Part shown: piece by piece, positions 5,717 to 20,680 of the stretch | Layout of the letters: each line of letters opens with the position of its first letter | Position numbering within the stretch: the stretch's first letter is position 1 | IMG/VR virus record: IMGVR_UViG_3300008266_008458 | Span: 1-20,680 of that record | Strand: one strand, 5' to 3' | From: a virus | DNA length: 20,680 bases | Program-made: the position numbers and the translations under genes | The notes under the pieces: model-generated | The model's database searches: none | Told to the model about the DNA's origin: nothing | What the model saw: only the letters and a program-made list of their open reading frames with translations

Positions 5717-5950
5717 ATGTCGATTAATTTTCCCAACGGAGCAACATCAGGTCAAACTTATGCCTACAATGGAATAGTGTGGGCGTGGAATGGTTTTGCT
5801 TGGGATAGGTATACACTAGGAAATCGCTTAGATGATTTAATTGATGTTGGTATTTCTGGAGTTTCTGCTGGTGATATTTTATACTATTCTGGTTCTCAGT
5901 GGATAAACAAACCTTTTAATGATATTCCAATTGATGGGGGATCATACTAA
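5717..5950 (+). CDS. Small fibre-associated protein with WAWNGFAW module
   Basis: 77 residues in two recognisable pieces. [21 protein letters not shown] (12-32) is the tryptophan-rich module found in many phage fibre proteins. [26 protein letters not shown] (38-63) is the 'LDDV...GDiLyY...gqW' linker module, which also occurs inside the collagen-like protein that follows (ELLDV...DGYFLVFD...GKWI). AUAGGTAA about 9 bases upstream serves as ribosome site. The last base of its stop codon is the first base of the next ATG (TAATG), so it is translated together with the collagen-like gene. It may be a detached N-terminal part of that fibre protein. Role inferred from modules. Confidence 0.6.
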
Positions 5951-6996
5951 TGGCGCAAGAGACAACAATAACAGCAACAATACAAGGACTGCAAACTATA
6001 ATTGAAGTTGCTACTCCTGGTGTTGCTCTTGCAGGACCACAAGGCATTCGGGGAATTCAAGGATTTACTGGAGGAACTGGTCCTATTGGCCCAACTGGTC
6101 CAACTGGTCCAACTGGCCCAACTGGATCTACTGGAGATCCAGGAATTCAAGGACCAACTGGTCCAACTGGATCTACTGGAGATCCAGGAATTCAAGGACC
6201 AACAGGCCCAACAGGTCCAACTGGTTCGACGGGTCCAACAGGTCCAACAGGTCCAACTGGGCCGACAGGACCAGCTGGAGCAAAAGGTATAAATGGAGAA
6301 AGAGGTCCAACAGGTCCAACAGGTCCAACTGGGGCATCGAATTTATACGAATTATTAGATGTTTCTATAGATCCAGAAATTGAATATTCAAGTTTAAAAG
6401 ATGGATATTTTTTAGTATTTGATATTTCAACTGGTGGCGGTAAATGGATTATGGATAATGTAAATAATTACATTAACTCTGGACTTATTGGGGAAACAGG
6501 TCCACAGGGTGCAGTTGGACCAACAGGTCCAACAGGTCCAACAGGTCCACAGGGAATTCAAGGAATTGTTGGGCCAACTGGTCCAACAGGTCCACAAGGT
6601 ATTCAAGGAGTTACTGGTCCAACAGGAGCAACTGGAGCAACTGGAGCAACTGGTCCAACAGGTCCACAAGGTATTCAAGGAGTTACTGGTCCAACAGGAG
6701 CAACTGGAGCAACTGGAGCAACTGGAGCAACTGGTGATCAGGGGCCACAAGGTATTCAAGGAGTTACTGGTCCAACAGGAGCAACTGGAGCAACTGGACC
6801 ACAGGGAATTCAAGGTGCAACAGGAGATATTCCAACAGATTATGTCATTTACATAAATGGATTAACAGGAATAGTTGGAATATCAGCAGGATCAAATATA
6901 ACTATAAATCAAAGTGGACAAACATTAACAATTTCAGCTTCTAGTAGTGGTGGAGTAACTGAAGCGTTTGTAATTGCTATGGCAACAGTACTATAA
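5950..6996 (+). CDS. Collagen-like tail-fibre protein with two Gly-X-Y rods
   Basis: 348 residues. An N-terminal anchor (1-28) ends in [10 protein letters not shown]. The first collagen-like rod covers about 29-129 and is dominated by GPTGPTG and GIQG. A non-collagen insert (130-178) carries the LLDV...[17 protein letters not shown] module. A second rod covers about 178-293, made of [19 protein letters not shown] units. A short beta C-terminus of about 50 residues ends in FVIAMATVL. Gly-X-Y rods form trimers in phage fibres and spike stalks. The same [11 protein letters not shown] anchor-to-rod junction occurs in the gene at 11337. The coding DNA has tandem repeats with units in multiples of 9 bases, so copy-number change would keep frame. 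The stop codon overlaps the late promoter of the next gene. Confidence 0.8.
6121..6345 (+). repeat. Tandem repeats coding for collagen-like rod 1
   Basis: Short GGTCCAACT/GGTCCAACA units (9 bases, Gly-Pro-Thr) recur throughout. A longer unit containing GGATCTACTGGAGATCC occurs at 6124 and again at 6169, a 45-base period (15 residues). All periods are multiples of 9, so expansion or loss keeps the frame and the Gly-X-Y register. Confidence 0.85.
6484..6834 (+). repeat. Tandem repeats coding for collagen-like rod 2
   Basis: A unit with CACAAGGTATTCAAGGAGTT followed by several GGAGCAACT triplets appears three times, with the CACAAGG segment near 6593, 6665 and 6745. The spacings of about 72 and 81 bases differ by one 9-base GGAGCAACT step. 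This is the pattern expected from slipped-strand or recombinational copy-number change in frame. Confidence 0.85.
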
Positions 6997-11336: not shown

Positions 11337-12260
11337 ATGTCAAATCCGAATGATCTGGCAACTATAATAATCACAACATTCAGTGATGCTGGATCTGGTT
11401 CTATTTCTATAACTGATAATTCTCAGCCAACAAATATTATAGTTAATAATACAACTGAAGCTGAAATATTTGTAACTCCAAATTTAACAACAAATACTGT
11501 AATAGAAAAAGCAACAGAAGCAGCAGTTTTGTATGTTTCTGCTCCTGGAGTTGCTTTGGCTGGACCACAGGGTATTCAGGGTATTCAGGGTCTAGTTGGC
11601 CCAACGGGACCAACAGGCCCACAGGGAATTCAAGGTCCAACAGGACCAACTGGAGAGAGTGGTTTTGTTGGGGGAACTGGACCAACAGGTCCAACTGGAC
11701 CTCAAGGAATTCCAGGAATATCTGGTTATGGTTATACTGGTGCTCAAGTTATAGGGGAATATCTTTATATCTCACAAGTCGATCCTAATGGGATTGTAGG
11801 TTCTCTTTATTCTATCGGATATGTTAGAGGAAATACTGGCGCAGATTCAACTGTGGCTGGTCCAACTGGGGCTACTGGTCCAACAGGACCACGGGGAAAT
11901 ACTGGAGCAACAGGAGAATATTATTTCACATCAACGACAGGTGTATCTTTAAACATTTCTGGATTAACTCATAATTTTTTTGTAGATTTAATTACAACTA
12001 ATTTATCAACAAGAACTAACGCAGCCTCATCAGATTTTCTATTAATACAGAGTAAAGATTCTGGTTCCACTGCTCAAAGAGTTACTGTTCAAACTTTATT
12101 AAATATTCCAGTAGTATCTGATGCACCAGGACTAATAACTAATCTCGAAACTAGTTTATTTTTGTTTTACGATACAGGCGACGAAACAGAAAAATCTGCA
12201 TCATTGAATACTGTAAAAAACGCAATAATAGAAGTAATCGATGGTGGAGAGTATTCCTAA
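11337..12260 (+). CDS. Second collagen-like fibre protein
   Basis: 307 residues. An N-terminal beta domain (1-68) contains [15 protein letters not shown] and ends in [17 protein letters not shown], nearly the same junction as in the collagen-like gene at 5950. A Gly-X-Y rod covers about 76-129 ([13 protein letters not shown]). A non-collagen insert (130-163) is followed by a short second rod (164-193, [16 protein letters not shown]). The C-terminal domain (about 195-307) is not collagen-like: [39 protein letters not shown], ending in [14 protein letters not shown], which resembles the end of many fibre modules. The two rods are much shorter than those of the first gene. The ribosome site is weak, so translation may depend on coupling with the gene just upstream. 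Confidence 0.75.
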
Positions 12261-12278: not shown

Positions 12279-14279
12279 GTGTCGATAATAAGATTTAAAA
12301 GAGGAACAACAGGACCAACTGGTTTAACACTCGGTGAACCAGCGTGGGATTACGCAAACAATAGATTTTTTATTGGTGTAACATCAGAAGCCATCTGGGT
12401 TGGTGCTCAGATTGATGGATCTACTGGTCTTGGTACAAGTCAACTTAAAATTCCAACACAAAATGCGGTTAAGCAATATGTTGATGCAAGAAGTGGTGTA
12501 GTTTCTGTTAATGGTCAAACTGGTGCAGTTACTATTTCAGTTTCTGGTGGTGGTGTCAGCAGCTTTAACGGACTCACTGGTGCTGTTCAAGGTGTTTCTT
12601 CCGTTAATGGTGCTACTGGTGCGATTACAAATGTTGCTCGTATAAATGAAGGTAATACATTCTCCGTTCGTCAAGTCATGAATGCTGGTGCTACCATGAC
12701 AACACTTTATGTGTCAAATGGTATTACTTTTAATGGAACAAGGTTTGAATTGAAAAACAATTCATCGCCAACAATTATTGGTACAAATACAAGCACAAAT
12801 AATTTAATTCTTCGTGGAAATAATAGTTCCGCTGTGACTCCAGCAGATGCAATTATCAATCTAAGAGGTGGAGATCTAGATACTCCAACATATGGAGAAA
12901 TAGATCTATTTGCTAGTGTTGGTAGAGTGAACATTAATACTGCAACATTTGGAGTTACTGCAAATCAATTATTAGAAGGAACATTAATTGTAACTCGTCT
13001 TGGAACATTTTATGAAGGTATCACAGCATCTGGTGCTACACTCAATGGAAATGTTGCTATATCAGGAACTCTAAGAACAACAGGTCTTGGAACATTTACT
13101 GGTGGAATCACAACAAATGGATTTACTGCATCAACCGTAAATGCAGTCTCATCTGTAGTGACTCCAGCAGTTTCCACACCAGTAGTAAATGCAAGTAATC
13201 TTGCACTTACATCAGTAAATGAAACTGAGGTTGTTCCTGGTGTTCTCTATACTGGTGGAGAAATAAATGTAACTGCTAAAAATAAAATAGCATTTACTGT
13301 TGGATCTGGCAGTAATACGGTTCCTTATCCAGTTCTAAGTTTCACAAATTCAAATACAAACGCAGCGGCAGATATAACATTTACCACACTAGGTGGAGAT
13401 ATAGAAATGTCTGCTGCTGGTGGAATTGTATTTAATCCAGTAACTTATGTGAATATGGCAGACGGTGTTCTTTATGTTGATGATACGAACAATAGAGTTG
13501 GTGTAAATACAACATCACCTTCTGTTCCACTTGATGTTGTTGGTGCTATGAATGTTTCTGGACTTGGATCATTTGCAGCTGGAATATCTGGAACAAATGG
13601 AATAACTTTTAATAACGCAACAGTTTATATTTTTAACTCAGGGGCAGTTGATCCACTATTCGTTCAGCATTCAACATCTGGATCTGTGAAAATTGCAACT
13701 ACAGGTCAGGCAAGACAAGGTTCTATAAGATTTGGAAATAGCGCAACATCTACAAATAATAATTTCATGCAGAGTGTAGATGGAACTTTAACTTTTTATC
13801 AGGGATTCAGTAATACTGGATCAAATATGTTGAATTTTAATGCAACAACATTGAATGTTTCTCCAACAATAACAGGAGCAACATTTAGTGGTTTGATTAG
13901 ATCAACTGCTGGAATCTGTGCAAATGCTGGAGTCACTGTTGGTGCTCATGTAAGTTCCGAGAGTGGTTATAGAATCACATCAGGCGCAATAAGAACACTA
14001 ACAGGAACAACTTATACATTCTTGACTACAGATGATGGTAAAATTATAACCAGTTCAAATTCATCAAACCAAATATTTACAGTACCCACTGGGCTTCCTG
14101 TTGGATTCAACTGTACAGTTATTCAATTGGGAAATGCTCCAGTAGGATTTTTAGGTGCTTCTGGTGTGACACTGAATAGTTTTGCTGGAAAAACATTTAC
14201 AGCAGGACCACATGCTGCGGTTAGTATAATAGAATACGCAACAAATATAGTAAATATTTCTGGTGGATTGACAACATGA
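12279..14279 (+). CDS. Tail-fibre protein with Mtd_N-like N-terminus and conserved fibre-tip domain
   Basis: 666 residues, GTG start with an AGAGGTA ribosome site 5 bases upstream. The N-terminus (RFKRGTTGPTGLTLGEPAWD, then NNRFFIGVTSEAIWVG) follows the 'F.RGT...GE.A.D...N.LyiG' pattern of the Mtd N-terminal attachment domain. Residues about 74-118 hold three VNGxTGAV linkers (VSVNGQTGAV, SFNGLTGAVQ, VNGATGAI). The middle is a long beta-helix-like region with alternating 'SGLGTF..GI' and 'TLYVSNGITFNG' units. The C-terminus (about 580-666) has TGTTYTFLTTDDGKIIT, VPTGLPVGFNCTVIQLG and GVTLNSFAGKTFTAGPHAAVSII, a conserved receptor-facing tip found in many phage fibres. The stop overlaps the next start as ATGA. 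Confidence 0.75.
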   Translation: MSIIRFKRGTTGPTGLTLGEPAWDYANNRFFIGVTSEAIWVGAQIDGSTGLGTSQLKIPTQNAVKQYVDARSGVVSVNGQTGAVTISVSGGGVSSFNGLTGAVQGVSSVNGATGAITNVARINEGNTFSVRQVMNAGATMTTLYVSNGITFNGTRFELKNNSSPTIIGTNTSTNNLILRGNNSSAVTPADAIINLRGGDLDTPTYGEIDLFASVGRVNINTATFGVTANQLLEGTLIVTRLGTFYEGITASGATLNGNVAISGTLRTTGLGTFTGGITTNGFTASTVNAVSSVVTPAVSTPVVNASNLALTSVNETEVVPGVLYTGGEINVTAKNKIAFTVGSGSNTVPYPVLSFTNSNTNAAADITFTTLGGDIEMSAAGGIVFNPVTYVNMADGVLYVDDTNNRVGVNTTSPSVPLDVVGAMNVSGLGSFAAGISGTNGITFNNATVYIFNSGAVDPLFVQHSTSGSVKIATTGQARQGSIRFGNSATSTNNNFMQSVDGTLTFYQGFSNTGSNMLNFNATTLNVSPTITGATFSGLIRSTAGICANAGVTVGAHVSSESGYRITSGAIRTLTGTTYTFLTTDDGKIITSSNSSNQIFTVPTGLPVGFNCTVIQLGNAPVGFLGASGVTLNSFAGKTFTAGPHAAVSIIEYATNIVNISGGLTT

Positions 14280-14656
14280 TTCCTAGTTTTAAACCTGGTA
14301 TTTTATCTTCAAATATAATTCGTGCTGCTGGTGGTGGTGGAGGTGGTAGTGATGTAACCCCAAATGCCGTGAATTGGATTGAAAGTACAAGCAATTCACT
14401 GGTGGCAACAAGCAATCAGCAAACCATCACGGGAATTGCATCTTATATAAAAAATTCTGGTTCTGCCATCGATGTGCAGAATCCTGCTGCATTTCCCGCT
14501 GTAGAATATGCAGATGTTTCTATTGTTAATGGGGATATATTGGAATTTAGGTTAGATGGAACTGGTAATTCTCAACAGGGCATATTCAATATTACGAATT
14601 TGAGTGATGGAAACACGCTGTTGGATACCGTAACATTGAATGTTCTTGGAGTATAA
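14276..14656 (+). CDS. Glycine-rich small structural protein, possible fibre-tip adhesin
   Basis: 126 residues. The start overlaps the fibre gene's stop (ATGA), so the two are translationally coupled. A six-glycine run (RAAGGGGGGSDV, about 17-28) separates a short N-terminus from a beta domain (NWIESTSNSLVATSNQQTI, DVQNPAAFPAVEYADVSIVNGDILEF) ending in DTVTLNVLGV. Glycine runs in a small protein just downstream of a fibre gene recall the adhesin/chaperone gene that follows the long tail fibre in T-even phages (gp38), but the poly-Gly pattern is too short to claim that. The domain could equally be a beta-sandwich decoration. G+C rises after about 14340, another sign of mosaicism. Confidence 0.5.
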   Translation: MIPSFKPGILSSNIIRAAGGGGGGSDVTPNAVNWIESTSNSLVATSNQQTITGIASYIKNSGSAIDVQNPAAFPAVEYADVSIVNGDILEFRLDGTGNSQQGIFNITNLSDGNTLLDTVTLNVLGV

Positions 14657-15382: not shown

Positions 15383-15778
15383 ATGAAGCGTGAAGAATTA
15401 TTTAAAATTCATAAAGATTTATGCCATTCAGCATTGAATTTGATGCAGAAAAAAAATACAGATTATGCTGGCAAAAAAGGAACAGAGCCATTTGCCAATT
15501 TTACAAGAGCCGAATCGATGGGAATAACAACTACTGAAAAGGGTATGTTGGTGAGAATGGTTGATAAGATTAGCCGTTTATCATCATTTACCGATTCTGG
15601 AACATTTACTGTGGAGGATGAAAAACTTGAAGATACAATCCTTGATGTTATCAATTATTCTATACTTTTCTACGCCTATATTCAAGACAAAAAAAATATG
15701 TCAAACAATCAGTTGGAACTTCCGTTTGACATTGTTATAATGAACAAGGAATCCAATAGTCCATCTGGAAGTGATTGA
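15383..15778 (+). CDS. DUF1599 / nucleotide-modification-associated (MazG-like) protein
   Basis: 131 residues from the ATG at 15383, which has AGGAG 6 bases upstream; a longer frame upstream lies inside dut. KKNTDYAG (23-30), EPFANF (35-40), RMVDKISR (58-65) and EDTILDVINYS (83-93) are the conserved blocks of DUF1599, an all-alpha fold related to MazG and dimeric dUTPases, with Glu/Asp residues placed to bind Mg2+. The family is frequent in phages and has been grouped with nucleotide-modification genes; its exact substrate is not settled. Its position between dUTPase and DNA polymerase suggests work on nucleotide pools. The last residues (SPSGSD) form a hydrophilic tail. The stop codon overlaps the polymerase start as TGATG. 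Confidence 0.8.
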   Translation: MKREELFKIHKDLCHSALNLMQKKNTDYAGKKGTEPFANFTRAESMGITTTEKGMLVRMVDKISRLSSFTDSGTFTVEDEKLEDTILDVINYSILFYAYIQDKKNMSNNQLELPFDIVIMNKESNSPSGSD

Positions 15779-17253
15779 TGAATTTCTATACAAATGTTTA
15801 TTATACTGGTTCAAATATTCTTTTAAGAAAAATAGTTGATGGAAGGGCAGAGAAGGTGAGGTTTAGTTACTCACCCTCTTTGTTTTTGATATCAAGTAAG
15901 AGTTCAAGTTACAAAACAATCGATGGTAGAAATCTAGAACAAATTCAATTTTCAAATATTTTTGAGTTGAATGACTTCAAAGAGTTATACAAAGATGTCG
16001 ATAACTTTGAGATACACGGAGAGATCGGTGTAGAATATCAATTTATATCTGAAAACTATGGTCCAGATTCTGAATACGATTTTAGAAAAATTGGAATTCT
16101 GTATCTAGATATTGAAACAACAGCGGAAAATTCATTTCCCTCTATTTCAAATCCAATAGAAAAAATCATAGCAATATCGTGTAAGTATAATGGCAGCAAG
16201 TATATTTTTTGCTTGGGTGAGTACAAAGCAAAGCCTGATGAAAATGCAGTCAGTTACTCAGACGAACAAAAATTACTAGAAGATTTTATTCAATTTATAT
16301 CTCATATTCAACCAGAAATCATTACTGGTTGGAATGTTAGATTTTTTGATATTCCGTACATCATCAATAGAGCAAATAAAATCCTAGATGAAGGTACAAC
16401 TAAGAAATTGTCTCCTTGGGGAATCATCAAGAACAAAATTATCAATAGAAAAGGATATGATGCAGAAGTCTATGAAATAATCGGAACTAGTATTCTAGAT
16501 TATTATGAACTTTATCAGACATTCACATATACAAATCAAGAATCATACAAGTTAGATCATATTGCCTATGTTGAACTTGGTGAGAGAAAAATTTCATATT
16601 CTGAGTATGAAAATATTTCAGATTTTTACAAGAATAATTTTCAAAAATTTGTAGAATATAATATGAAAGATACCGAACTTGTTGAAAAACTTGAAGAAAA
16701 ATTAAAATTGATTGAACTTGCAACAGCATTGGCATATTCAGCTGGTGTGAATTATAACGATGTATTTTCTCAAGTTAGAACATGGGATGTAATCATATTT
16801 AACGATCTAAAAAAGAAAAACATAGTAATTCCACCAAAAAGAAAAAACAATAAAAATGATCAATATGCTGGAGCATATGTAAAAGATCCAATTGTTGGAA
16901 TGCATCAATGGGTAGCATCTTATGATGTCAATTCTCTATATCCTTCTTTGATTGTTCATTACAATATTTCTCCAGAAACTATTCAGAACAAAAATTTCAA
17001 AGGAAAGATAAATTTGAATGATATATTAAGTAACAACAAAGATACAGAAACATTCAAATGTTTTGAAAAAGCAAAAGAATATGGATATTCCATTGCGGCA
17101 AATGGAACAATGTACTCTGTGGAAGAGCAAGGGTTTTTGCCTAAACTTATGGATAAGATGTATAAAGAAAGAAAACAATTTAAAAATCTTATGATTGAAT
17201 CTAAGAAAAAACTAGAAGAAGTAAATAAAGAAATAAAGAAGAGGGGCTTGTAG
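15778..17253 (+). CDS. 43: DNA polymerase gp43, N-terminal part only (family B; exonuclease plus motif A)
   Basis: 491 residues from the ATG at 15778 (TGATG with the previous stop). T4 gp43 is about 898 residues. Present are the N-terminal domain, the 3'-5' exonuclease with Exo I DIE (Asp111, Glu113; T4 Asp112 and Glu114), Exo II WNVRFFDIPYI (Asp191) and Exo III YNMKDTELVE (Asp298), and polymerase motif A YDVNSLYPSLI (Asp383), followed by HYNISPETI and FLPKLMDKMYKERKQFK. The frame then stops after a charged helix ending in KKRGL. Motif B (KxxxNSLYG) and motif C (YGDTDS), and thus one of the two catalytic aspartates, are absent from this product and from the rest of the window. Split gp43 genes (43A/43B) are known in some Aeromonas T4-like phages, broken in the same part. 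It therefore probably needs a separate C-terminal subunit encoded beyond the window. Confidence 0.9.
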   Translation: MNFYTNVYYTGSNILLRKIVDGRAEKVRFSYSPSLFLISSKSSSYKTIDGRNLEQIQFSNIFELNDFKELYKDVDNFEIHGEIGVEYQFISENYGPDSEYDFRKIGILYLDIETTAENSFPSISNPIEKIIAISCKYNGSKYIFCLGEYKAKPDENAVSYSDEQKLLEDFIQFISHIQPEIITGWNVRFFDIPYIINRANKILDEGTTKKLSPWGIIKNKIINRKGYDAEVYEIIGTSILDYYELYQTFTYTNQESYKLDHIAYVELGERKISYSEYENISDFYKNNFQKFVEYNMKDTELVEKLEEKLKLIELATALAYSAGVNYNDVFSQVRTWDVIIFNDLKKKNIVIPPKRKNNKNDQYAGAYVKDPIVGMHQWVASYDVNSLYPSLIVHYNISPETIQNKNFKGKINLNDILSNNKDTETFKCFEKAKEYGYSIAANGTMYSVEEQGFLPKLMDKMYKERKQFKNLMIESKKKLEEVNKEIKKRGL

Positions 17254-17281: not shown

Positions 17282-17851
17282 ATGGCTGAAACGAGAAACA
17301 TCATTGATCACTACCATTACTGGAATCATGAAGCCATCATGGCAGATCTTGATTCCAAGAGAAATAACTTTACCGTTATTTGTGCAAATGTTGAGAATGA
17401 CTTCAACATTAGCACAGTGATCAGAAATTCAAATGCATTTCTAGCAAATGAAGTTTGGATTTATGGCCGTAAGCAATATGATCGTCGCGGTACTGTAGGA
17501 ACACATCTGTATACTAAGTTTCGCCATGTGAAGACGATTGATAATCTTGTAGAAGAACTAAATTCATTGAAGGAAAGAGCTGGAGGAAACATTCATGTTG
17601 TCGGCATTGATAACATTTCAAACTCATCTAACATTACCAATTTCTCTTGGGGTAATGACTCAAATGCCCATGTTGTGATGATTTTTGGACAAGAGCAGAT
17701 TGGCATTCCAAAGGAACTTATTGATATCTGTGACGATGTTGTTTATATTCCACAGTATGGATCAGTTCGTAGTCTAAATGTTGGTACTGCAAGTGGTATT
17801 GCAATGTATGACTATTGCACCAAGGTAGTTGACACAGTAAATAGTATGTGA
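17282..17851 (+). CDS. SPOUT-class RNA 2'-O-methyltransferase (TrmH/SpoU family)
   Basis: 189 residues with the three SpoU motifs. Motif 1 is NDFNISTVIRNSNAF (39-53), with Asn42 and Arg48 at the conserved catalytic positions. Motif 2 is FGQEQIGIPKEL (135-146) with Glu138. Motif 3 is IPQYGSVRSLNVGTASGIAMYDY (156-178), forming the trefoil knot that holds SAM. These enzymes methylate ribose 2'-OH in tRNA or rRNA. It lacks the extra N-terminal RNA-binding domain of rRNA methylases and in layout resembles TrmH (Gm18) more than TrmL. The gene sits directly before phage tRNA genes for Gln and two Leu, so phage tRNAs are plausible substrates; this is inference. It has its own extended -10 promoter. 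Confidence 0.88.
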   Translation: MAETRNIIDHYHYWNHEAIMADLDSKRNNFTVICANVENDFNISTVIRNSNAFLANEVWIYGRKQYDRRGTVGTHLYTKFRHVKTIDNLVEELNSLKERAGGNIHVVGIDNISNSSNITNFSWGNDSNAHVVMIFGQEQIGIPKELIDICDDVVYIPQYGSVRSLNVGTASGIAMYDYCTKVVDTVNSM

Positions 17852-17974: not shown

Positions 17975-18045
17975 TGCTCTGTGATGAAATGGTATCATAG
18001 GAGGCTTTGAACCTCCGCTTCTTGGTTCGAATCCAAGCAGAGCAT
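17975..18045 (+). tRNA. trnQ(UUG): tRNA-Gln (anticodon UUG)
   Basis: A full cloverleaf: acceptor TGCTCTG/CAGAGCA (7 bp, U1-A72 as usual for bacterial tRNA-Gln), D arm ATGA/TCAT with an AATGGTA loop, anticodon arm GGAGG/CCTCC with loop CTTTGAA (anticodon TTG), variable loop GCTT, T arm CTTGG/CCAAG with TTCGAAT. CCA is not encoded. Reads CAA codons, which are frequent in the AT-rich phage genes. Confidence 0.95.
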
Positions 18046-18048
18046 GTC

Positions 18049-18315
18049 GGGATTGTGGCGGAACAGGCAGACGCAACAGACTTTATATATGAGCACTTAG
18101 GTAGGAATATTTAAGTGAATCCAATCAAATTCGGTGAACGGTTTAAACTCCCAACGCCGAGCCAAGCCCTAATAGGAAGGTGTAGAGACTAGACGGTTGG
18201 CATCCAGAACGGATGAAGGCATAGTCCAGACCACAAACGCAAGGTGACGAAAGTCATAGTGGTAAGAAAATCTGTCGGTCAATTGACCATGTGGGTTCGA
18301 TTCCCACCAATCCCA
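18049..18315 (+). tRNA. trnL(UAA): tRNA-Leu (anticodon UAA), split by a group I intron
   Basis: Exons 18049-18083 and 18267-18315 join into an 84-nt tRNA: acceptor GGGATTG/CAATCCC with discriminator A, D arm GCG/CGC containing GG, anticodon stem ACAGA/TCTGT with loop CTT|AAAA (anticodon TAA), long variable arm GGTC-AATT-GACC typical of tRNA-Leu, T arm GTGGG/CCCAC with TTCGATT. The intron interrupts the anticodon after U34, the position used by the cyanobacterial and plastid tRNA-Leu(UAA) intron. CCA is not encoded. It starts 3 bases after tRNA-Gln. The spliced tRNA reads UUA, the commonest Leu codon in AT-rich genes. Confidence 0.94.
18084..18266 (+). ncRNA. Group I intron (IC3-like, 183 nt) in tRNA-Leu(UAA)
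   Basis: Seen elements: the 5' exon CTT pairs with internal guide GAG, giving the U-G pair at the splice site. P2 is CACTTA/TAAGTG. The conserved J-region CCGAGCCAAGCC is followed by GGAAGGTGTAGAGACTAGACGG in two adjacent blocks, containing the P3' and P7 strands; P7 is GACTA with TAGTC (in CATAGTCC). P8 is CATCC/GGATG. P9 is ACCAC/GTGGT, with an inner TGAC-GAAA-GTCA GNRA hairpin. The last base is G (omega-G, 18266). Layout and conserved blocks match the Anabaena tRNA-Leu(UAA) intron as I recall it, in a compact form without P5/P6 extensions. No ORF lies inside. Self-splicing activity is inferred. Confidence 0.9.
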
Positions 18316-18320
18316 TTGAA

Positions 18321-18362
18321 AAGGCAATTCGTATATATAGTAATAGGGGCACGAATTGCCTT
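18321..18362 (+). promoter_or_regulatory. Perfect 12-bp hairpin abutting the HNH start codon
   Basis: AAGGCAATTCGT (18321-18332) and ACGAATTGCCTT (18351-18362) are exact inverted copies around an 18-base loop containing TATATATAG and the ribosome-site-like AGGGG. The ATG at 18363 follows the stem directly. There is no U-tract, so a terminator is unlikely. In T4, homing-endonuclease genes are often silenced by such hairpins in long transcripts and expressed from a late promoter within the hairpin; a similar control is inferred here. Confidence 0.6.
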
Positions 18363-18833
18363 ATGAAGACTTATGGTAGATTAAATAAAATTGGTAAAAA
18401 CAAATTACAAGAGTTAGCAAACAATTGTAAAAGTTTAGCAGGATTAATAGAACAATTAGGTTATAGCAAAACTGCTGGTGGAACATTTTCTGTTGTTAAA
18501 AAATATCTACAATTATATCAAATAGATACATCTCATTGGACAGGTAAAGCATGGAATAAAGGTCAGCAATTAAAAGATTGGTCAAAATATGCCAATCATC
18601 AATATTGTAAAAAACATTTAATATCAGAAAGAACTCATAGATGTGAATTGTGTGGATTAACAGATTGGCGTGAATCTCGTATTCCTTTGGAGGTTCACCA
18701 CAAAGACGGTAACAGAACAAATAATGAATATGATAATTTACAATTACTTTGCCCAAACTGTCATGCTATGACTGATACTTGGAGAGGTAAGGGTAAAAAA
18801 CACCAAAGTGGTGAAACTGGCATACACGATTGA
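18363..18833 (+). CDS. HNH homing endonuclease (free-standing), overlapping tRNA-Leu(CAA)
   Basis: 156 residues from the ATG at 18363; the same frame extends upstream only into tRNA-Leu(UAA). Residues 13-60 are a helical DNA-binding segment (NKLQELANNCKSLAGLIEQLG, in two parts, then IDTSHWTGKAWNKG) known from this HNH family. The nuclease core is HRCELCGLTDW (92-102), PLEVHHKDGNRTNN (108-121) and NLQLLCPNCHAMTDTW (125-140), with zinc ligands C94/C97/C130/C133 and catalytic His112 or His113 and His134. It would nick or cut DNA and spread into uncut sites. The gene is markedly AT-rich (14 G+C in 18481-18540). Its last 32 bases are also the first 32 bases of tRNA-Leu(CAA). Confidence 0.88.
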   Translation: MKTYGRLNKIGKNKLQELANNCKSLAGLIEQLGYSKTAGGTFSVVKKYLQLYQIDTSHWTGKAWNKGQQLKDWSKYANHQYCKKHLISERTHRCELCGLTDWRESRIPLEVHHKDGNRTNNEYDNLQLLCPNCHAMTDTWRGKGKKHQSGETGIHD

Positions 18834-18883
18834 TTCAAAATCAATTGCCTAACGGCATGTGGGTTCGATTCCCACCTTTGGTA
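18802..18883 (+). tRNA. trnL(CAA): tRNA-Leu (anticodon CAA)
   Basis: 82-nt cloverleaf: acceptor ACCAAAG/CTTTGGT with discriminator A, D arm GTG/CAC with loop AAACTGGCATA, anticodon stem ATTGA/TCAAT with loop TTCAAAA (anticodon CAA), long variable arm GCC-TAAC-GGC, T arm GTGGG/CCCAC with TTCGATT. CCA not encoded. Reads UUG. Its T arm and flanks (18856-18876) are identical over 21 bases to those of tRNA-Leu(UAA) (18288-18308). Positions 18802-18833 also encode the HNH C-terminus. Confidence 0.94.
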
Positions 18884-20510: not shown

Positions 20511-20680
20511 ATGAAAAAAGATCTCAAGCAAGCAAAGAAAAACGCTGAGTATATTGCAAAGATCAAAATAGAAAAAGGTTGCTGTAAATGTGGTTATAAA
20601 GTGCATCCAGCAGCATTAGAATTTCATCATTTGCAGGATAAAAAGCATAATATATCACGCATTGCTAGATCTGGAGTTCC
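20511..20680 (+). CDS. HNH-type endonuclease or zinc-finger protein, 3'-truncated by window edge
   Basis: Open from the ATG at 20511 to the window end (56 codons). MKKDLKQAKKNAEYIAKIK is a basic helix. GCCKCGYKVHPAALEFHHLQ (27-46) is the first half of a treble-clef HNH core, with CxxC zinc ligands and the HH pair that holds the catalytic His, followed by DKKHNISRIA. The 'ALEFHHxxxxKK..IS' form is common in phage HNH proteins. The second CxxC (or HNH histidine) would lie beyond the window. If it is an endonuclease, it is a second candidate mobile gene flanking the insert after the split polymerase. Expressed from the late promoter just upstream. Confidence 0.7.
   Translation, partial: MKKDLKQAKKNAEYIAKIKIEKGCCKCGYKVHPAALEFHHLQDKKHNISRIARSGV

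Follow-up and report, generated by a model that had tools for sequence, protein, structure and literature searches.

The window, i.e., the whole stretch of 20,680 nucleotides analysed here, is a fragment of a virus record and contains a gene 43 that stops between polymerase motifs A and B, which raises the question of where the remaining half of the DNA polymerase is encoded. The gene, termed 43A (15778–17253, plus strand), runs from ATG at 15778 to TAG at 17253 and encodes 491 amino acids, representing the N-terminal half of a family B DNA polymerase. According to the translation of the open reading frame (ORF), it includes exonuclease motifs I (YLDIETT), II (TGWNVRFFDIPY), and III (YNMKDTELV), motif A (SYDVNSLYPSLI), and the first fingers helix. 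Pfam analysis identified the exonuclease domain (PF03104), while DNA_pol_B was matched only to profile position 147 of 453, and the 20,680-base record gave no further DNA_pol_B match, so that the window lacks motifs B and C. The first-pass annotation, which had described intact exonuclease motifs and motif A in a frame ending at 491 residues and no motif B or C in the rest of the window, is borne out by the translation and by Pfam.

The stop of 43A is not an error, because it is identical in L002, a second contig of the window phage (99.98% identical), and stands at the equivalent place in relatives: 43A of L003, L004, L005, and L006 (56–58% identity), as well as of L024, ends within a few codons of the window stop. 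The charged helix at this end is also common to the relatives (e.g., ...KKLEEVNKEIKKRGL, ...KNLEQINEELKRRGLHV, and ...KQLEAVEAELKRRGIA), in agreement with the earlier description of a clean end rather than a ragged frameshift. Two alternatives had been named at that time, a sequencing error and the decay of this gene beside a complete second polymerase. The stop position common to relatives excludes the former, no second polymerase is present in the window, and decay is ruled out by the shared break together with the partner gene described below. Neighbouring lineages (L007–L012 and L014) possess whole polymerases without a break at this position. In alignment with RB69 gp43 (1clq), 43A matches up to residue 499, and the motif-B half from a full-length relative matches from residue 555 onwards; this gap places the break in the fingers tip. 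Upstream of the gene, L002 (6573–6630) differs from the window at position 14436 by an insertion of about 56 bases inside the ORF at 14276–14656.

The Partner Gene 43B of the Window Phage

The missing half was traced via contigs overlapping the end of L002. L112 overlaps L002 over 1,967 nt at 99.95% identity, and L111, which came from the sample of L002, has the same sequence. Both carry an intact 43B (L111: 1306–2418) of 370 amino acids without internal stop, which is located on the same strand as 43A and contains motif B (LNSAYGALGN) and motif C (ASDTDS), read as MNLEKLSDRELLEYKRTLEYDISKYHNFQLVRKVQLNSAYGALGNEWFRF...ASDTDS.... The gene starts at approximately window position 24,035, about 3.4 kb past the window end and about 6.8 kb after the 43A stop. 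A second same-strand ORF with motifs B and C is also present in L005 and L006, 4–5 kb after the 43A stop. The sequence of the window phage thus speaks almost with certainty for a split 43A/43B polymerase. As the partner gene is present, the split reading of the first-pass annotation holds; it had expected another gene to supply the missing half and had pointed to a motif B/C protein in the flanking genome, which is the gene found on L111 and L112. Beyond its view were the 43A/43B junction as a probable landing site of mobile elements and the stop-bearing 43B of relatives.

In such a split enzyme, 43A would serve as the exonuclease and palm-N/first-fingers-helix subunit of the replicative family B DNA polymerase, and 43B would provide the second fingers helix with motif B, the palm with motif C, and the thumb; an active enzyme would need 43A paired with 43B. 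The polymerase halves of Aeromonas phage 25 co-purify and have polymerase activity (PMC2988022), and by analogy with the Aeromonas phages, phage 25 in particular, we infer that 43A and 43B of the window phage assemble. The split Aeromonas phages (44RR, 25, 31, and the Aes series) resemble the window phage in the fingers-tip break, with the exonuclease and motif A in the N half and motifs B and C in the C half, so that the comparison with their gp43A/gp43B made in the first-pass annotation is apt (44RR, Aes120, and others share the same break). Several of them carry a GIY-YIG endonuclease between the halves; 44RR is split, and its 43B is uninterrupted.

Stop-Bearing Interruption of 43B in Relatives

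The interruption described in this and the following sections belongs to relatives of the window phage, whose own 43B is without the stop-bearing insertion. In L023, L024, and L025, 43B is broken inside motif B, directly after LNSAYGAVG, by GGT TAG, and the frame resumes 5 or 6 nt on. A pattern scan for the GGN-plus-stop arrangement returned 39 stretches, all of which were gp43, and scans for other stops and neighbouring motifs led to a total of 33 distinct interrupted sequences. Among these 33, the skipped length is 4, 5, 6, 8, 9, 10, or 11 nt, the downstream part is found in all three frames, and the stop codon is TAG (25), TAA (5), or TGA (3). The ORF upstream of the stop comprises 44–48 codons in nearly all interrupted relatives.

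While the first scans required GGN and a stop, the codon preceding the stop (take-off codon) was free only in two later scans, which were meant as controls and either dropped the demand for a Gly codon or placed the stop one codon earlier. These later scans gave a Ser class (TCC TAG TT ACC AAC) and a Leu class (CTT TAGC CTT GGT, CTT TAG CTA GGA, and CTT TAG TGA CTC GGT), and the interruption is now represented by 41 distinct sequences from over 50 (about 60) metagenomes. The take-off codon and the codon just before the resume point (landing codon) specify one and the same amino acid in 33 of the 41 and share the middle base in all 41; in the other 8 (GGT/AGC and TCC/ACC), the landing codon matches at just two of three bases. 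The pairs covary (Gly/Gly, Leu/Leu, and UCC/ACC), and where the stop is one codon earlier, the landing codon is also one codon earlier (CTT to CTN). Matches to the pattern in L071, L075, L079, L081, L084–L089, and L121 were judged to be chance, as were all six matches from a scan of the whole-genome collection for the stop site.

Purifying selection acts on the first 32 codons past the 43B stop (pooled pN 0.112, pS 0.735). The polymerase-segment tree requires at least 10 changes in the frame of the insertion and shows interrupted members mixed with uninterrupted ones. A record of 178.6 kb (G006) contains one detected polymerase, the family B one; neither a family A or C polymerase nor a group I intron was found in it. 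These data bear on the reading that the interrupted 43B (or the split 43A) represents decay or an assembly artefact, to which we give almost no credence. It could appeal to the source of the interruption, since the interrupted genes come from metagenomic contigs only and none of the cultured phages seen among the matches listed in the collection searched has the insertion. However, it has to face the recurrence in over 50 metagenomes with both flanking frames intact, the strong purifying selection, the covarying stem described below, and the failure to find another polymerase in G006. Alignments with cyanophages fall short by 5 nt, exactly the insertion length, and L047 as a query against cultured phages gave no match.

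RNA Stem Upstream of the Stop

The 120 nt ahead of the stop align without gaps across the interrupted sequences and contain a stem of 16 bp, in which columns 22–28 and 30–38 pair with columns 112–118 and 102–110. Pairing is formed in 93.3% of cells, versus 80.0 ± 1.0 in shuffled and 25–47% in slid alignments; double changes are found in 67 cells versus 20.3 ± 4.0 when shuffled, and the covariation score is 0.431 versus 0.172 ± 0.013. The same stem was found unaided by RNAalifold. Interrupted sequences form 10–16 of the 16 pairs, while uninterrupted and intron-bearing polymerases form 4–8. The 43B of the window phage, uninterrupted and with 7 of 16 pairs, thus represents an empty site. The folding of the upstream stretch has a mean z of −3.64 for 33 interrupted genes versus 0.03 for 11 uninterrupted genes, which are unstructured there.

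The codon choice in the stem strands is extreme (CGT for 26 of 26 Arg at codon −30, and TAC for 27 of 29 Tyr at −5), which may come partly from shared recent ancestry of a mobile segment. The Ser and Leu classes retain the stem at the same gene position. Its 3' strand runs as far as the take-off codon. A DNA-level inverted repeat was considered instead of an RNA stem and judged less likely; several positions frequently show T-G pairs (at one of them, UG in 18 of 31), which suits RNA, and the stem is therefore read at the RNA level. A GAGG stretch is located 5' of the stem (all 23 Glu codons at −36 are GAG); a Shine–Dalgarno role for it at landing is only a thought. Within or after the gap, no conserved structure was seen in the interrupted sequences, i.e., neither a take-off/A-site hairpin nor a 3' stem-loop.

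Position and pairing of the stem also concern the reading in which the 4–11 nt are cut from the mRNA by a residual or trans-acting group I ribozyme or another kind of RNA excision. Aes120 and G2285 do carry group I introns in motif B, and so do, judged by exon/intron sequence, other Aeromonas phages. On the other hand, no group I intron was found in 11 relevant records, G006 included, either at the motif-B site or elsewhere; the stem is wholly 5' of the insertion rather than bracketing it; and excision has no need for matching codons on both sides. We regard such excision as very improbable.

Proposed Decoding across the Stop

Pointing to the matched codons, the stem, and the selection past the stop, we consider it quite likely that the interrupted relatives produce full-length 43B through short programmed ribosome bypass. 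The ribosome would halt with peptidyl-tRNA on the codon preceding the stop and let go, slide 4–11 nt, re-pair at the matching codon, and resume in whichever frame follows; the conserved RNA stem, which extends with its 3' strand to the take-off codon, would assist in this. For L028, the bypass product would give the junction-spanning tryptic peptide IQLNSAYGAIGNEYFR, with no extra residue.

Independent initiation offers another route, in which the segment of about 45 amino acids is a free peptide, the downstream part is initiated on its own, and three polypeptides assemble into a three-piece polymerase. Further fragmentation of this polymerase does occur: 43A is broken in L119 and L120, and Aes512 splits 43B with an intein. 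However, an ATG, GTG, or TTG in the downstream frame before the resume point is absent in 29 of 33 sequences, and in-frame members have just 1–2 codons between the stop and that point. The first in-frame start codons further downstream are scattered from codon 1 to codon 48, while the residues ahead of them are under strong purifying selection, and separate initiation gives no reason for the covariation of take-off and landing codons. Three pieces are consequently an improbable solution. The additional break of 43A, near the third exonuclease motif in L119 (7142–9593, reverse complement) and L120 (4269–6771), amounts to about 0.7–0.8 kb, so the polymerase of these two would be encoded in four stretches.

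Ordinary recoding could also be envisaged, i.e., readthrough of the stop where the downstream part is in frame and +1 or −1 frameshifting elsewhere. The 6- and 9-nt members are in frame, and a shift could in principle supply the net frame change of the rest; yet a single conserved stem and position would then serve three different events, and no consistent slippery sequence is present. In L068 and L073, moreover, the new frame has a second stop immediately preceding the landing codon, which means that shifting ahead of the first stop cannot work there. The chance that ordinary recoding accounts for the interrupted genes is therefore slight. Programmed bypass, the preferred reading, is combined below with the mobility of the element.

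A Probable Mobile Cassette

A GIY-YIG endonuclease gene, whole or as a remnant, is located directly before most interrupted 43B genes and has been lost in some. L027 and L044 are nearly identical over ~900 nt of the endonuclease and the 43B 5' segment up to the stop, soon after which identity falls to ~75%; L043 and L052 likewise pass abruptly at the stop from near-identity, over ~190 nt, to lower identity. Among interrupted phages, L091 is the nearest relative of the window phage (69% identity in 43A), and it retains a stump of the old 43B start before the endonuclease. The drop of identity at the stop and the stump in L091 indicate that the endonuclease is transferred as one unit with the replacement 5' segment and the stop, at which the transferred tract ends. 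From these comparisons, a cassette of endonuclease, 43B 5' segment, and stop is very probably mobile.

The fingers-tip gap before 43B would be the landing site of this cassette, which would consist of a GIY-YIG homing endonuclease gene, a replacement 5' segment of about 45 codons, and the stop-bearing insertion of 4–11 nt in motif B. The insertion would lie at or next to the presumed cut site, and we infer that it protects the 43B of its carrier from cleavage by the endonuclease. As a whole, the combination of split polymerase, mobile cassette, and bypass is the best explanation and appears quite likely. In the Aeromonas phages Aes007 and 50AhydR13PP (L096 2620–3795 and L097 2601–3776), an uninterrupted 43B with YGCLGN instead of YGALGN in motif B was observed beside a differently annotated endonuclease gene; this is perhaps resistance by substitution.

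Comparison with Known Systems

The original paper on gp43 insertions is reportedly that of Petrov, Ratnayaka and Karam from 2010. In Aes120, Aes002, phiAS4, and E. coli phage G2285, the order 43A–endonuclease–43B and the motif-B site are the same as in the interrupted relatives, and Aes120 and G2285 have a GIY-YIG endonuclease before a group I intron in motif B. The interruption in these four phages is a group I intron of ~250–300 nt, whereas that of the relatives is an insertion of 4–11 nt without intron. Aes512 additionally contains a split intein and a VSR-type endonuclease.

T4 gene 60 is a gene split by an endonuclease, with 46 codons, GGA followed by UAG, a matched landing codon, a 5' stem, and a 50-nt gap, which is thought to be a degenerate intron, possibly of group I origin, protecting against the endonuclease (PMC5009743, PMC11194080). 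The cassette of the relatives resembles the T4 gene 39/60 topoisomerase split in the endonuclease-linked division of the gene, the in-phase stop after the take-off codon (Gly in T4), the 44–48 codons, the matched landing codon, and the 5' stem. It differs in its host gene, in its GIY-YIG endonuclease, in its long-range stem reaching the take-off codon, and in the lack of a visible take-off or 3' hairpin; the gap is 50 nt in T4 gene 60, whereas it is 4–11 nt in 43B of the relatives, in all three frames and 41 sequence variants. The byps of Magnusiomyces mitochondria (81 instances, reportedly not dependent on the mRNA context) are also short inserts skipped in translation, with landing codons that are not always perfectly matched (PMC5009743). 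Unlike these mitochondrial elements, the cassette affects one bacterial-virus gene, comes with a linked endonuclease, and contains a conserved stem.

The split, the partner gene, the interruption, the selection, the stem, and the mobility can be read from the sequences themselves, and the best reading of the relatives' 43B is a miniature analogue of the T4 gene 60 bypass cassette, at the site of the Aeromonas group I intron. Shorter counterparts of T4 gene 60 have long been presumed, with few authenticated cases listed (PMC5009743). A search of literature that takes in only a minority of subscription journals found no paper describing a 43B stop cassette. Such a stop-hop is probably widespread in T4-like environmental phages, affecting an essential gene as an endonuclease-linked cassette that works in any frame, needs codon matching and the covarying stem, and has replaced, or descended from, the group I intron at this site.

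Programmed bypass is so far a near-singleton in bacteria and their viruses, and its detail is known from essentially one T4 gene. About 40 natural variants, with gaps of 4–11 nt, three frames, swapped codon pairs, and a covarying stem, make the take-off and landing rules testable by comparison. They suggest that T4 gene 60 exemplifies a more general pattern: after a gene has been split by an endonuclease, the self-protecting insertion is tolerated through a translational skip. Gene finders would call the interrupted polymerases truncated or missing.

The Interval between 43A and 43B and Other Features

While the halves of the Aeromonas polymerases are adjacent or one gene apart, those of the window phage are separated by 6.8 kb containing genes for a SpoU-type methyltransferase, tRNAs, and HNH endonucleases, and in L002 also a tmRNA gene. 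The place of the remaining gene 43 is occupied by the SpoU/TrmH-type methyltransferase gene (17282–17851, plus strand), which also follows 43A in L005, L006, and L024. It is followed on the plus strand by tRNA-Gln(UUG) at 17975–18045, the first in the tRNA cluster between 43A and 43B, an HNH endonuclease ORF (18291–18833), and tRNA-Leu(CAA) at 18802–18883. The HNH ORF is absent in L005, where uninterrupted tRNA-Leu genes adjoin. At the contig end, the start of a small HNH gene (MKKDLKQAKK..., 20511–20680, plus strand) is cut off; in L006, 43B begins 2.6 kb after this gene.

The anticodon loop of a tRNA-Leu(UAA) at 18049–18315 apparently contains a group I intron (Rfam RF00028, 18073–18246), presumably at the position known from cyanobacterial tRNA-Leu introns; the counterpart of this tRNA in L005 (5021–5104) is uninterrupted. 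The HNH ORF at 18291–18833 starts within the 3' part of this tRNA gene and fills the space to the next tRNA-Leu, and a close relative of the ORF is found in L024 between uninterrupted tRNA-Leu genes. The tmRNA gene between 43A and 43B was identified in L002 (14706–15019), L006 (15164–15477), and L024 (8250–8683), with the tag AAPMRMAA and, in L024, the permuted type according to Rfam. Finally, the window encodes collagen-like Gly-Pro-Thr repeat proteins at 5950–6996 and 11337–12260, which are probably tail fibres.
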